Source: Candidatus Gastranaerophilales bacterium (GTDB lineage Bacteria; Cyanobacteriota; Vampirovibrionia; Gastranaerophilales; Gastranaerophilaceae). From it: 64,000 nt of DNA. Below are positions 7,011 through 33,481 of the stretch, piece by piece. The stretch covers positions 62,001-126,000 of the forward strand of contig CALUQX010000001.1 in assembly GCA_944323045.1 (NCBI GenBank), given 5' to 3'. The notes below the pieces were generated by a model. It did not search any database. It was not told where the DNA came from and saw nothing but the letters and a program-made list of their open reading frames with translations. Both the position numbers and the translations under genes were made by a program. How positions within the stretch are numbered: the stretch's first letter is position 1; each line of letters starts with the position of its first letter.

Positions 7011-7700
7011 TTATACCATTCCCTCTTTAACAGCTTTCACCGCAGCCTGCACTCTGTCATTTACACACATTTTTTGTAATATTGAGCAAACATGTGCCTT
7101 TGCAGTGTGCACACTTACTATCAATTCTTTTGCTATTTCAGTATTGCTTTTTCCTGAAACTAAGTGTTTTAAAACTTCATATTCTCTTTCTGTTAATGGA
7201 ACTCTGCCTTCTGATTGCGATTTGTTTGGCAAAAATCCGATATTTTCCACTTTCGGGAAAGAATTTAGTGCGAGCTGTGCAACCATAGGGTCTATCCAAC
7301 AAACTCCTGTTGCCACATCTCTTACAACATCTGCAAGTTTCTGCGGATCAATGTCTTTCAAACAATAAGCGCTTGCGCCGGAACTTAATGCCGCAACAAC
7401 TTCTTCTGCTCTGTCATGTGAAGTTAATGCTATAATCTTTGTTTCCGGTGCGAACTCTTTTACTTTAATCATCGCCTCAATACCGTTCATGCCCGGCAGC
7501 CCCAGATCCATTAATACAACATCAGGTTTGTATCTTTCAATAAATTTCAACCCCTCAATTGCATTTTCAGATTCTGCAACAACTTCCATGTCGTCATTTG
7601 CATTCAATGCGCATCTTAAGCCGACACGGGTTAGTTTGAAATCCTCCACAATGATAATTCTAATTACCTTTTTGTTTTCATTTGCGTTTGTATCTTCCAT
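7011..7700 (-). CDS. NarL/LuxR-family response regulator
   Basis: A two-domain transcription factor of 229 residues. The receiver domain (about 12-130) has the acidic pair VEDF near the start, the phosphoacceptor Asp65 in MDLGLPG, and the conserved Lys in CLKD. The C-terminal LuxR-type helix-turn-helix (about 165-225) has the typical LTEREYEVLKHL and HTAKAHV blocks. No histidine kinase is adjacent, so it is an orphan here. A G-rich ribosome site precedes the ATG. The gene faces the GH13 gene across a gap that contains a 10 bp palindrome and a direct repeat, candidate binding sites. Confidence 0.88.
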   Translation of the reverse strand: MEDTNANENKKVIRIIIVEDFKLTRVGLRCALNANDDMEVVAESENAIEGLKFIERYKPDVVLMDLGLPGMNGIEAMIKVKEFAPETKIIALTSHDRAEEVVAALSSGASAYCLKDIDPQKLADVVRDVATGVCWIDPMVAQLALNSFPKVENIGFLPNKSQSEGRVPLTEREYEVLKHLVSGKSNTEIAKELIVSVHTAKAHVCSILQKMCVNDRVQAAVKAVKEGMV

Positions 7701-29859: not shown

Positions 29860-30522
29860 ATGACATTAGATATTGAAAACTGGTTGGATAAAGTTGTCAG
29901 AAGACTTCGGGATGTATGGTGTAACCGGCTGCTTTTTGTAGGACTGCAGGGCAGCTATAACAGAGGCGAGGCAACTGCTGAAAGTGATATTGATCTTGTC
30001 GTTATTTTAGATAAATTAGATTTTGTGGATTTGAAAATTTATCGTGAAATTATAGAGGCGATGCCATATAAAGAAAAGGTCTGCGGATTTATTTCCGGCA
30101 AAGAAGAAATTCAAAAATGGTCAGGGGCGGATTTGTTCCAATTTTATTATGATACCAGATATTTGTTTGGTAAATTGGATGATATCATACAACCTCCTTC
30201 GAAAAATGATATCAAAATGTCGGTTAAAATTTCTGCTGAGAATTTGTATCATTCTGCGGTTCATAGTTTTATGCATTCTGATAATAGGGCAGAAGATTTG
30301 CGGAATTTATACAAGATGACATTTTTTATATTACAGGCAAAATATTTTGTGGAGAAAAATACTTATATTCCAACCAAAAGAGAACTGTTAAAATATCTGC
30401 AAGAACCGGATAGGGAAATTTTAGATATCTGTATAAACCGGAAAGAAATTGTTATAGAAAATAATAATTTGTTGGAAAATTTGTACCAAAAACTCATCGC
30501 ATGGAGTGCAGAAAATATTTAG
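29860..30522 (+). CDS. Nucleotidyltransferase-domain protein
   Basis: A protein of 220 residues with the polymerase-beta-type nucleotidyltransferase motif GSYNRGEATAESDIDLVV, that is GS, a spacer and the two metal-binding aspartates, near residue 32-50. The C-terminal half is helical and HEPN-like in size, with no obvious active-site motif. The family includes kanamycin nucleotidyltransferase-like proteins and MNT antitoxins. AGGTG precedes the ATG at 29860; an upstream TTG is rejected. The target is unknown. Confidence 0.75.
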   Translation: MTLDIENWLDKVVRRLRDVWCNRLLFVGLQGSYNRGEATAESDIDLVVILDKLDFVDLKIYREIIEAMPYKEKVCGFISGKEEIQKWSGADLFQFYYDTRYLFGKLDDIIQPPSKNDIKMSVKISAENLYHSAVHSFMHSDNRAEDLRNLYKMTFFILQAKYFVEKNTYIPTKRELLKYLQEPDREILDICINRKEIVIENNNLLENLYQKLIAWSAENI

Positions 30523-30597: not shown

Positions 30598-31281
30598 ATG
30601 ACATTAAATGAAATTAATATTTACTGTGATGAAAGTTGCCATTTAGAATATGATGATAATAAAGTTATGGCGATTGGTGGTATAATTTGTCCAAAAGCAT
30701 ATAGAAAAAAAATTTTTAGAGAAATTAGGGATTTAAAAACGAAACATAACATTCGTTCAACTACCGAAATTAAATGGAGCAAAGTTTCAGATTCAAAAAA
30801 AAATTTTTACTATGAATTAGTTAAATATTTTTTTGACAATACTAATCTCGCATTTAGGGCTGTCTTAGTGCCTGACAAAAATAAGTTAGAGCATAATAAA
30901 TATGGTCAAACACATGATGAGTTTTATTATAAAATTTATTATGATATGCTGAAAAAATTATTTGTTCCATTTTATTTTTGGAATATCTATATTGATGAAA
31001 AGGACACTCTTGGCTCAACAAAAATTGAAAAATTAAGATTGTTTCTAAAAGGAGGTAATGTAAAAATTCAAGAAGTACGTTCGAAAGATGTGGAACTAAT
31101 TCAATTAGCAGATATTTTCCTCGGTGCTATAACATATAAAAACAGATTGTTAGAAACTAATCCTACAAAAGTAAATATGATTAAACTTATTGAATCTTAT
31201 GGATATAAACTTGATGAAACGACCCCTTATGTAAAAGAAAAATTTAATATACTTAGATGGAAAACTCGAGAGGAGTTATAA
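30598..31281 (+). CDS. DUF3800-domain protein
   Basis: A 227-residue protein of the DUF3800 family, whose members are thought to have an RNase H-like fold and are common in mobile and defence-associated loci. The family pattern is present: YCDESC near residue 10 (usual YxDESG), an acidic IYIDEKD strand near 140, and VELIQLADIFLGAI near 170 with the last conserved Asp. It is Lys and Asn rich and more AT-rich than neighbouring housekeeping genes, in keeping with transfer. AAAGGAAG precedes the ATG. The stop TAA shares its last A with the ATG of the next gene, so the pair is coupled. Confidence 0.82.
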   Translation: MTLNEINIYCDESCHLEYDDNKVMAIGGIICPKAYRKKIFREIRDLKTKHNIRSTTEIKWSKVSDSKKNFYYELVKYFFDNTNLAFRAVLVPDKNKLEHNKYGQTHDEFYYKIYYDMLKKLFVPFYFWNIYIDEKDTLGSTKIEKLRLFLKGGNVKIQEVRSKDVELIQLADIFLGAITYKNRLLETNPTKVNMIKLIESYGYKLDETTPYVKEKFNILRWKTREEL

Positions 31282-31841
31282 TGCCAAGCTGGTTACCAAA
31301 TACTATAGATTATAACAAATATAAAAATATTCAAGAATTTATTGATGAAATATATAATATTTTCATTACTGATTTTCATATAAAAAAAATCAAATTTAAT
31401 GATAAATATATCGGGTTAGCACAAAAATTATTAAGTTGTACGCCGAATGAAAATTGTTATAGTGCTGAATATAATTGTAGTAATTGTCCTTTTCAGGGGA
31501 AACTTGATATTTTTAATCATGTAATTACTGGTAAAATAAACACATATCGAACTCCCGGAAAGTTTAACTTAAAACGTGCTGTTAGAATACATTGGATTAA
31601 ATATATTATAGATAATTATAAAAATGGAGTGTGTTATTTTAATGAACAAACAAGAAAAGGATTAAATCATTATTTTTGGCTTGTAAATGAAAAATTTATA
31701 GTTATTTTTATAGAAACTAAAACTCATAAATATTTTTTAAAAACTGCTTTTTACATTGACAAGCCAACATATGAACATAAATTTCAGAAAAAGTATGAAA
31801 CTTATTTATTGAAAAAGTCCACTATTAAAATAGCGGACTAA
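31281..31841 (+). CDS. Hypothetical partner of DUF3800, possible RelE/EndoU-like RNase
   Basis: Unnamed 186-residue protein. The N-terminal half has a cysteine cluster (CTPNENC, then YNCSNCPF) that could bind zinc. The C-terminal half, from about residue 95, reads as a compact alpha/beta domain with KRAVRIHWIKYII, then RKGLNHYFWLVNEKFIVIF and YFLKTAFYID. That order of a basic helix, a K/R-rich strand, a hydrophobic strand and a final T-A-x-x-x-D resembles the RelE/EndoU/colicin-type nuclease fold; this is a weak inference from pattern only. AGAGGAG ends eight bases before the start, which overlaps the DUF3800 stop by one base. A predicted small RNA runs antisense across its last 30 bases. Confidence 0.7.
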   Translation: MPSWLPNTIDYNKYKNIQEFIDEIYNIFITDFHIKKIKFNDKYIGLAQKLLSCTPNENCYSAEYNCSNCPFQGKLDIFNHVITGKINTYRTPGKFNLKRAVRIHWIKYIIDNYKNGVCYFNEQTRKGLNHYFWLVNEKFIVIFIETKTHKYFLKTAFYIDKPTYEHKFQKKYETYLLKKSTIKIAD

Positions 31842-31871
31842 TATCTCTTTCTACAACTTGGTAGATGAGCT
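31812..31871 (-). ncRNA. Predicted antisense small RNA with its own promoter and terminator
   Basis: On the minus strand a promoter (TTGACT, 17 bp, CATAAT at 31906-31878) points to a start near 31871. The transcript would form a small 5' hairpin (CTAC-CAAGTT-GTAG) and end in AGTCCGCTATT/AATAGTGGACT followed by TTTTTC. The G-U pair in that stem forms only on the minus strand; on the plus strand it is an A-C mismatch. About 60 nt are predicted, overlapping the last 30 bases of the DUF3800-partner gene. No coding frame of note lies in it. Confidence 0.45.
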
Positions 31872-31877
31872 ACTTAT

Positions 31878-31906
31878 ATTATGACATATTCTATGTAAAA
31901 AGTCAA
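31878..31906 (-). promoter_or_regulatory. Promoter of the predicted small RNA
   Basis: Minus-strand TTGACT (31906-31901) and CATAAT (31883-31878) are separated by exactly 17 bp. The -35 lies in an inverted repeat GTCAATAG/CTATTGAC (31902-31909 with 31935-31942) shared with the plus-strand promoter. Confidence 0.55.
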
Positions 31907-31937
31907 TAGTTTTTTGTAAATTTTTTTACATAAGCTA

Positions 31938-31966
31938 TTGACAAATTTACAAAAAATTGATACTGT
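31938..31966 (+). promoter_or_regulatory. Promoter-like site facing the tRNA gene
   Basis: TTGACA (31938-31943) and TACTGT (31961-31966) are 17 bp apart on the plus strand. Any transcript would run antisense to tRNA-Ala, and no plus-strand gene follows, so it may be a chance match created by the inverted repeat. Confidence 0.3.
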
Positions 31967-32001
31967 TAATTATTTTTTAGTCATGCTCCGCGTTTTACAT
32001 T

Positions 32002-32074
32002 TGGAGCGTAGGGGATTCGAACCCCTGACCCCGACACTGCCAGTGTCGTGCGCTACCAACTGCGCTAACGCCCC
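32002..32074 (-). tRNA. tRNA-Ala (anticodon GGC)
   Basis: A 73-base cloverleaf on the minus strand: acceptor GGGGCGT/ACGCTCC, D-arm GCGC/GCGC, anticodon arm CGACA-CTGGCAG-TGTCG with anticodon GGC, and T-arm AGGGG-TTCGAAT-CCCCT. The third acceptor pair is G-U, the alanine identity mark. The CCA end is not encoded. Confidence 0.96.
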
Positions 32075-32873: not shown

Positions 32874-33239
32874 CTAAGCGCTTTGCTGTAATTTTTCATC
32901 TACTGCTTCATCAATCAGCGCGTTGATGCTGATACCCATGACTTTGGCGCGTTTTGCAAGCCTGTAATGCTTATCCGGAGTCGTTCTGTATGGAATTTTC
33001 CCCTTGAAATCAATTGGTTTTAATGGCTCGGGGATGTCATCTCCGTATTGCAAAGAATTGACTATGTAAGATTTTAATGCGTCTTGTATCATTTCCGTTG
33101 CTTCTAAAATGGTATCACCATGCGACATACATCCTTTTAACTCACATATAGATGCGACATAGCATTTGTCTTCATCAGACCATTCAAATCTATAAGACCA
33201 TGGCAAATTCAAATAATATTCAAGATTTTTTTCTGTCAT
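32874..33239 (-). CDS. hicB: HicB-family antitoxin
   Basis: Antitoxin of a type II toxin-antitoxin pair, 121 residues. The N-terminal HicB fold has WSDEDKCYVASICELKGC and the SHGDTILEATEMIQDAL helix. The C-terminal RLAKRAKVMGISINALIDEAV is a ribbon-helix-helix DNA-binding domain. It follows hicA with a four-base overlap (ATGA). Together with HicA it should bind the operator upstream of hicA and repress the pair. Confidence 0.9.
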   Translation of the reverse strand: MTEKNLEYYLNLPWSYRFEWSDEDKCYVASICELKGCMSHGDTILEATEMIQDALKSYIVNSLQYGDDIPEPLKPIDFKGKIPYRTTPDKHYRLAKRAKVMGISINALIDEAVDEKLQQSA

Positions 33240-33481
33240 TTTTGAACTCCTTCATTGATTAGGGCTTCTTGTATCATTTTCATTGCATATTTTTTTAAGG
33301 GTTTTTGGGTTGCAACTAGTGTAATTTTATCACATCCCGCTTTTCTGAATGTTTTGTGTGAACTTCCTCCTTGAGGAAATTCAGAGGCATAGCCCAAATC
33401 CGTAAGTAATTTTTCTGCTTCGGCAAAAGTAATGCAGCCGCCCGACATGATTTTTTGAATAAGTTTATCGCGTTTACTCAT
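33236..33481 (-). CDS. hicA: HicA-family toxin
   Basis: mRNA-interferase toxin of 81 residues with a double-stranded RNA-binding-like fold. The catalytic His is in GGSSHKTFRK, and the following strand KITLVATQKPLKK is typical. It precedes hicB in the usual order. No ribosome site is visible; a -10 element ends six bases before the ATG, so the message is probably leaderless. The gene looks intact, so the toxin is likely active. Confidence 0.9.
   Translation of the reverse strand: MSKRDKLIQKIMSGGCITFAEAEKLLTDLGYASEFPQGGSSHKTFRKAGCDKITLVATQKPLKKYAMKMIQEALINEGVQK

Follow-up and report, generated by a model that had tools for sequence, protein, structure and literature searches.

A small RNA conserved with the rlfAB gene pair and carried alone by phages suggests an RNA-controlled RNase module

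A 64,000-nucleotide stretch of the genome of a Candidatus Gastranaerophilales bacterium (contig CALUQX010000001.1; hereafter the window) carries a DUF3800 gene followed by a second gene without a name, and a putative transcription unit on the minus strand runs into the pair from the opposite side. This locus raises the questions of whether a small RNA is really made there and, if so, what it does to the two proteins encoded beside it. An initial annotation, made from the letters alone, had described the two genes as overlapping by one base, had assigned the minus-strand unit a promoter with 17-bp spacing, a 5' hairpin and a terminator, and had read its product as an antisense RNA. Both plus-strand open reading frames were found, sharing exactly base 31281, and rlfA and rlfB, as we call them after their phage P1 homologues, are translationally coupled. 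The promoter, hairpin and terminator were likewise found as described, and they recur behind rlfB in relatives (Table 1).

Table 1. Features of the rlfAB-RNA locus in the window
Feature	Position	Strand	Basis or remark
rlfA homologue	30598..31281	+	DUF3800 protein, 227 aa, RNase H2-like fold (model)
rlfB homologue	31281..31841	+	186 aa, predicted BECR-fold RNase with Cys4-type insert
Two-hairpin small RNA of about 60 nt, convergent to rlfB	31812..31871	-	Covariance model, fold and conservation
Hairpin 1, near-invariant CUCAUCUACCA...GUAGAARGAG	31845..31869	-	56-sequence alignment
Hairpin 2, stem of intrinsic terminator	31816..31839	-	U-tract 31815-31812 next to it; overlaps 3' end of rlfB
Small-RNA promoter TTGACT-17-CATAAT, extended -10	31878..31906	-	Kept in Gastranaerophilales relatives
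AT-rich region: TTTGTAAA/TTTACAAA repeats plus another promoter-like site, pointing rightward	31920..31975	+	By eye

The product of the first gene matches the Pfam DUF3800 model (PF12686) with 55.6 bits (E 1.3e-14), above the family cut-off of 21, and the PADLOC model PDC-M04A with an E value of 9.3e-79. The product of the second gene matches PDC-M04B (E 2.2e-23), as did all 80 of the 80 RlfB members scanned, and the window pair consists of adjacent M04A (DUF3800) and M04B genes, the arrangement of PDC-M04 and of the RlfAB pair of phage P1. The P1 proteins share 45% identity with the window RlfA over 96% and 29% with the window RlfB over 89% (E 3e-6). The AF2 model of RlfA (pLDDT 91.2) resembles RNase H2 (Foldseek E 3.0e-6; VIA Z 12.5, rmsd 3.0 over 163), and its residues D11, E12, D133 and D172, invariant in 53 relatives, correspond to what we take to be the active site of RNase HII (D-E...D...D). 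RlfA is modelled, by both fold and site, as an RNase H2-like enzyme, in agreement with the RNase H fold already published for DUF3800 and for RlfA (PMC10910872, PMC3710099). A DNA-level scan with one genome per species had more than 500 relatives of RlfA among the matches listed, from which 80, belonging by record title to about a dozen phyla, were kept; an RlfB-like ORF lies directly 3' of rlfA in nearly all the fetched loci with sequence there. Immediately upstream of rlfA, the window holds an NTP_transf_2 (nucleotidyltransferase-fold) gene (29869-30522).

For RlfB, the initial annotation had noted that the C-terminal domain weakly recalls RelE/EndoU RNases, and this is still the best reading after structure prediction. 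With the AF2 model (pLDDT 92.5), Foldseek alone returned no significant match; BECR RNases were grouped only by the second aligner, VIA, where they take the first 14 of 50 rows with low Z-scores (5.2-3.1) and include CdiA toxins, colicin D, HigB, RelE, BrnT and Cami1. A sequence-profile search of solved structures gave nothing for RlfA or RlfB, while weak matches to Pfam PBECR2 (PF18810) were found in 2 of 80 RlfB members (best E 7.6e-4), the window RlfB itself having none. Residues H80 and R99 are invariant and T/S155 is nearly invariant among 121 members. RlfB is thus likely a BECR-fold (colicin D/RelE/EndoU-like) RNase, a fold that we regard as likely and not as proven because the Z-scores are low. 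The cysteine cluster that had also been pointed out is real (C53-x5-C59-x6-C66-x2-C69), but the insert is present only in a subset of members. One RlfB match, at locus L013, was false and adjoins unrelated regulators. Several E. coli plasmid records, such as CP148313 and NZ_CP012497, label the rlfB stretch as 'oxidoreductase', which is probably a misannotation.

In the window itself, covariance model R1 places the RNA at 31810-31876 with 56.2 bits (E 2.3e-11), and the 60-nt RNA folds much more stably than shuffled sequences do (z = -5.07). Neither element is more frequent in the window than in shuffled sequence, with 30 sigma70-like sites (shuffles, 26.0 +/- 4.3) and 3 terminators (shuffles, 2.0 +/- 1.6); the small-RNA promoter, judged from the window alone, is therefore not beyond chance, and the case for the RNA rests on relatives. 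The G-U pair of the terminator stem, previously taken as a sign of a minus-strand RNA, does correspond to a C-A mismatch on the plus strand, but it is weak alone as proof. The AT-rich region with its TTTGTAAA/TTTACAAA repeats adjoins the RNA promoter and is, by eye, common to Gastranaerophilales loci; it may be a regulated divergent promoter.

The minus-strand stretch is kept in the nearest relative with 88% DNA identity over 108 nt. When 383 genomes of the family were searched with the stretch by BLAST, all strong matches adjoined an rlfB gene and none of the 17 loci with weak, promoter-only matches did, for which reason the promoter sequence alone is not the signal. A regular-expression scan showed that this hairpin also follows rlfB in unrelated phyla and in phage P1. 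In an alignment of 56 sequences, picked by motif and thus leaning to conservation, 96% of the hairpin 1 cells are paired and 12 cells are changed on both sides, a result reached by 0 of 500 shuffles; its paired variants are UCUAC/GUAGA, UCAAC/GUUGA, UCCAC/GUGGA and UUUAC/GUAAA, and its loop is variable, with an insert of 0-22 nt. The terminator stem covaries much more than hairpin 1, with pair-keeping double changes in 8 of 9 pairs across relatives. Because that alignment was motif-selected, the covariance-model search is the fairer test. It gave one match in each of 79 of 81 sources (the window and 80 genome loci) at E <= 1.8e-5, always directly behind rlfB and on the strand opposite to it, so that the gene pair with a conserved RNA is found again in relatives as well as in P1. 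Of the two sources without a match, L037 is a contig broken off within rlfB, and L094 has a copy that has visibly diverged. The minus-strand unit was present in essentially all relatives with the pair, and its promoter is conserved in those of the Gastranaerophilales.

Further loci show how the arrangement varies. Those that appeared to lack the RNA (L128, L132, L133, L142, L149 and L037) were discarded as such, their sequence ending at or in rlfB, and L006 gave no covariance-model match. Four divergent rlfAB loci (L146, L147, L150 and L153) seem by eye to have another hairpin in place, e.g. UUCAUUCUCC..GGAGGAA, and two tandem RNA copies lie behind one rlfB at L129 (7312-7598). Within 386 genomes of the phylum the covariance model found 12 places: 9 adjoin rlfAB, 2 are orphans in what look like prophages, and 1 is probably false (L209, most likely a chance match to a terminator). 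Such orphan copies, at L206 (1501-1579) and L208 (1571-1501), have prophage-like settings (DNA methyltransferase, serine recombinase), with one stem weakened.

Upstream of the RNA, a sigma70-like promoter with at least 9 of 12 positions was found in 34 of 43 non-Bacteroidota loci against 2.6 expected, and TAnnTTTG, the Bacteroidota promoter type, in 28 of 35 Bacteroidota loci against 0.68 expected and in 1 of 43 elsewhere, the expectations being those of mononucleotide shuffles and the lineages those of the record titles. Such lineage-matched promoters are strong evidence of RNA transcription. Taken together, these computations support a real small RNA that is conserved with rlfAB across about a dozen phyla.

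The RNA matches no family of Rfam 15. Rfam already holds structured RNAs found with DUF3800 genes, the motifs DUF3800-I to DUF3800-XI, but none of these models matches the window or 36 loci at gathering score, nor 9 loci even up to E 5, and its identity with a known RNA family was rejected, permissive thresholds included. In a literature search, with subscription papers and preprints outside its range, PDC-M04, the combination of DUF3800 with PADLOC, and the small RNA were each without a paper. The DUF3800-linked RNAs, the DUF3800 RNase H fold and the PDC-M04 pair are already known; as far as the literature searched shows, the RNA, its fixed convergent place, its P1 copy, the BECR-like RlfB and the orphan phage copies are new.

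The genomic surroundings suggest what the module may be for. In a sample of 63 genes flanking 24 genomic rlfAB loci, 7 HsdM, 6 HsdS and 5 HsdR matches were found, as raw counts. In one locus (L028) the order is type III mod - rlfA - rlfB - RNA - res; mod is also present in L030 and L091, type I hsd genes in L071, L074 and L090, and HerA in L063. Restriction operons of type I or III thus often enclose the module, a context that, like its status as a PADLOC candidate and the orphan copies in phages described below, fits the RNA-regulated toxin or defence system that the initial annotation had thought possible, a plausible reading. Other neighbours seem to have less to do with it. A tRNA-Ala (32002-32074) and a HicB-like gene (Pfam match, 32874-33481) lie beside the module as first annotated, with a small ORF upstream of the latter in the HicA position that has no HicA match in Pfam, but they look like chance or insertion-site neighbours; a relative keeps the tRNA and not the other flank. 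In L018, the closest named relative, the module is again at the 3' side of the same tRNA gene (about 7414-7486) with a different other flank, which suggests a shared insertion site. That the unit might be the terminator of tRNA-Ala was considered and rejected, since it is rlfAB that the unit accompanies, and in genomes of the same genus the matches to the tRNA region stop short of it.

Phage P1 carries the same arrangement in a well-known genome. Its RNA (NC_005856, 52910-52982 complement, 58.3 bits) is convergent with RlfA-RlfB (RapA-RapB in P7), a homologous pair with the one-base overlap; in the P1 record the two genes are credited with no more than a possible part in lytic replication, and the RNA is absent from the annotation. 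PADLOC likewise has models for both proteins as PDC-M04, but its hits are protein models and include no RNA.

The RNA is also found in phages without the proteins. A viral scan with a single RlfB protein found nothing, the RlfA alignment being required. The exact degenerate pattern of hairpin 1 occurs in at least 120 stretches of viral contigs, against a few expected by chance from base arithmetic (uniform bases, tens of gigabases). RlfA and RlfB were absent by HMM in 68 of 80 fetched viral loci, whose orphan copies form 53 distinct groups, so that at least 53 distinct phage sequences carry the RNA alone. These copies score at least 32.8 bits with the covariance model, hairpin 1 having been the criterion of their selection, and the 48 nt behind the hairpin have a mean fold z of -2.51 compared to -0.77 in front, as expected if the second hairpin is present. 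A tRNA gene lies within 500 nt of the orphan in 19 of 67 cases, compared to 10.0 when positions are drawn at random from these loci, a count that none of 2000 draws reached, although the loci are in part related to one another. Among the carriers with a name are phages of Bacillus subtilis, namely SPbeta, phi3T, Goe11-14 and BUCT083. The SPbeta and phi3T copies occupy an unannotated stretch before yonK, doubled in SPbeta, beside a DUF3800-VIII RNA above gathering score; at least these phages therefore combine DUF3800-type RNAs of two kinds at a place that lacks rlfAB. The SPbeta stretch between yonN and yonK (NC_001884; L330, 2828-4247) is a small-RNA array without annotation, in which two tandem copies, the second with UGUAC/GUACA, accompany the DUF3800-VIII RNA, which scores 47.5 bits, and a skipping-rope RNA that at 29.6 bits stays below threshold. 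Three phage loci (L216, L254 and L268) have an orphan copy together with a ROOL RNA.

Solitary copies in phages without the system nearby are also the mark of Racr RNAs, phage copies of the RNA of a host defence system (PMC10651486). Racr RNAs mimic CRISPR repeats, whereas the matching system here would be RlfAB, in a predicted role; they are the closest tested parallel to the orphan copies. We infer that the orphan phage RNA may serve as an antidote or decoy against RlfAB.

Two nuclease-type proteins made together, a separate near-invariant structured RNA and the occurrence of this RNA by itself in phages point to restraint by binding, lifted on infection, and to phage antidotes. The explanation that we favour, at about an even chance, is that RlfAB-RNA is a three-part RNA-controlled RNase module, its two RNases kept in check by the RNA, which in phages would serve as an antidote. 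The coupled genes encode the RNase H2-like RlfA and the BECR-modelled RlfB, and the third gene, convergent and with its own promoter, specifies the small two-hairpin RNA, which would bind protein and hold RlfB or an RlfAB complex inactive through the near-invariant hairpin 1. Infection might stop or outcompete the synthesis of the short RNA, or the associated restriction system might be inhibited; the freed RNases would then cut RNA and the infection would be aborted, except in phages that bring the RNA, without rlfAB, as antidote or decoy. The RNA and the two folds have computational support, and toxicity, neutralisation, release and counter-defence are what we infer from the arrangement. Several points count against this model. 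The Z-scores of RlfB against BECR folds are low (at most 5.2), with no significant match by Foldseek alone; in P1 the C1 operator in front of rlfA means that the gene may be active during lytic growth and not in lysogeny, an unexpected pattern for a defence of the resident prophage; the RNA is in single copy and separately transcribed, unlike type III antitoxins; and the orphan RNAs could serve an unrelated phage function.

Known systems resemble the restraint model in part. The type III toxin-antitoxin layout, with the RNA upstream, co-transcribed and in tandem repeats, is not the one observed, as the RlfAB RNA is convergent, downstream, driven by its own promoter and in single copy in nearly all loci. 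PrrC and RloC anticodon nucleases are, like RlfAB, RNase-type proteins embedded in restriction (type I) loci, but the proteins are unrelated, and we know of no RNA partner for them. The closest precedent with tests behind it is AbiF/Abi_2 with RCd22, a type III-like toxin-antitoxin of phages and bacteria whose small conserved hairpin RNA, next to the toxin gene, binds the Abi toxin directly and so neutralises it (PMC12373285). That toxin family is unrelated, and RCd22 lies upstream with two motif copies, whereas RlfAB combines RNase H2-like and BECR-like proteins with one convergent RNA.

The main rival makes the RNA a positive cofactor or scaffold: it would bind RlfA, and the nucleases could not be assembled or aimed without it, so that RlfAB would be an RNA-dependent effector and the phage copies would act as decoys, trapping the proteins in dead complexes in the way that Racrs trap Cas proteins. 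Other structured RNAs are linked to DUF3800 proteins, which also occur with Cas12a2 and at VI-F loci (PMC10910872, PMC12669027), the variable hairpin 1 loop could be functional, and orphan phage copies fit decoys, but the RNA has no variable spacer-like stretch and does not look like a guide, being almost invariant outside the loop and the terminator; we hold this reading to be unlikely, if worth serious attention. In a different order of events, the orphan would be the original, a phage small RNA that RlfAB, with a copy of its own, senses or competes with. The orphans are common and lie near phage tRNA genes, yet cellular copies are mostly with rlfAB in the 386 genomes, which makes this origin improbable.

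The initial annotation had taken the unit for an antisense RNA. On a third alternative reading, it would be a cis regulator that acts on the rlfB mRNA through their 3' overlap or through transcriptional collision. The unit does cross the 3' end of rlfB, and only that end; the overlap recurs in 62 of 78 loci with a median of 18 nt. But the overlap is absent from 16 of the 78 loci, the RNA persists in phages that lack rlfB, and what overlaps is the fast-changing terminator, the most conserved part, hairpin 1, being outside the gene and near-invariant across phyla. Moreover, the RNA pairs with the start regions of its own rlfA or rlfB no better than with those of other loci, for which reason binding to protein is likelier than antisense control, and the antisense role is very doubtful. 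Even less credible to us is the reading suggested by the P1 gene names, in which RlfAB-RNA would help the phage to replicate or to process RNA. In P1 rlfAB lies behind repL, a C1 operator precedes rlfA, and rlfB is annotated as 'replication protein'. However, the names are position-based ('possibly associated with lytic replication'), rlfAB was non-essential in a CRISPRi screen of P1 (PMC10695390), and many chromosomal copies sit inside restriction operons.

Extending the restraint model, RlfAB-RNA might be a widespread RNA-gated abortive-infection system, present in P1 and in restriction operons, against which a wide range of phages, with SPbeta at one end and contigs of hundreds of kilobases at the other, bring ready-made RNA antidotes, in places arrayed with other DUF3800-type RNAs, as a general class of RNA counter-defence outside CRISPR; this broader proposal we put forward tentatively, at somewhat below an even chance. 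A small RNA conserved in about a dozen phyla, and present in a textbook phage such as P1, has apparently been missed, and two genes named for replication by their position, together with a nameless defence candidate, become one RNA-protein system with testable parts, for which P1 in E. coli and SPbeta in B. subtilis are ready laboratory models. The orphan copies could also account for some of the small RNAs in phage tRNA regions that have had no explanation, as these may be antidotes to RNA-controlled defences.
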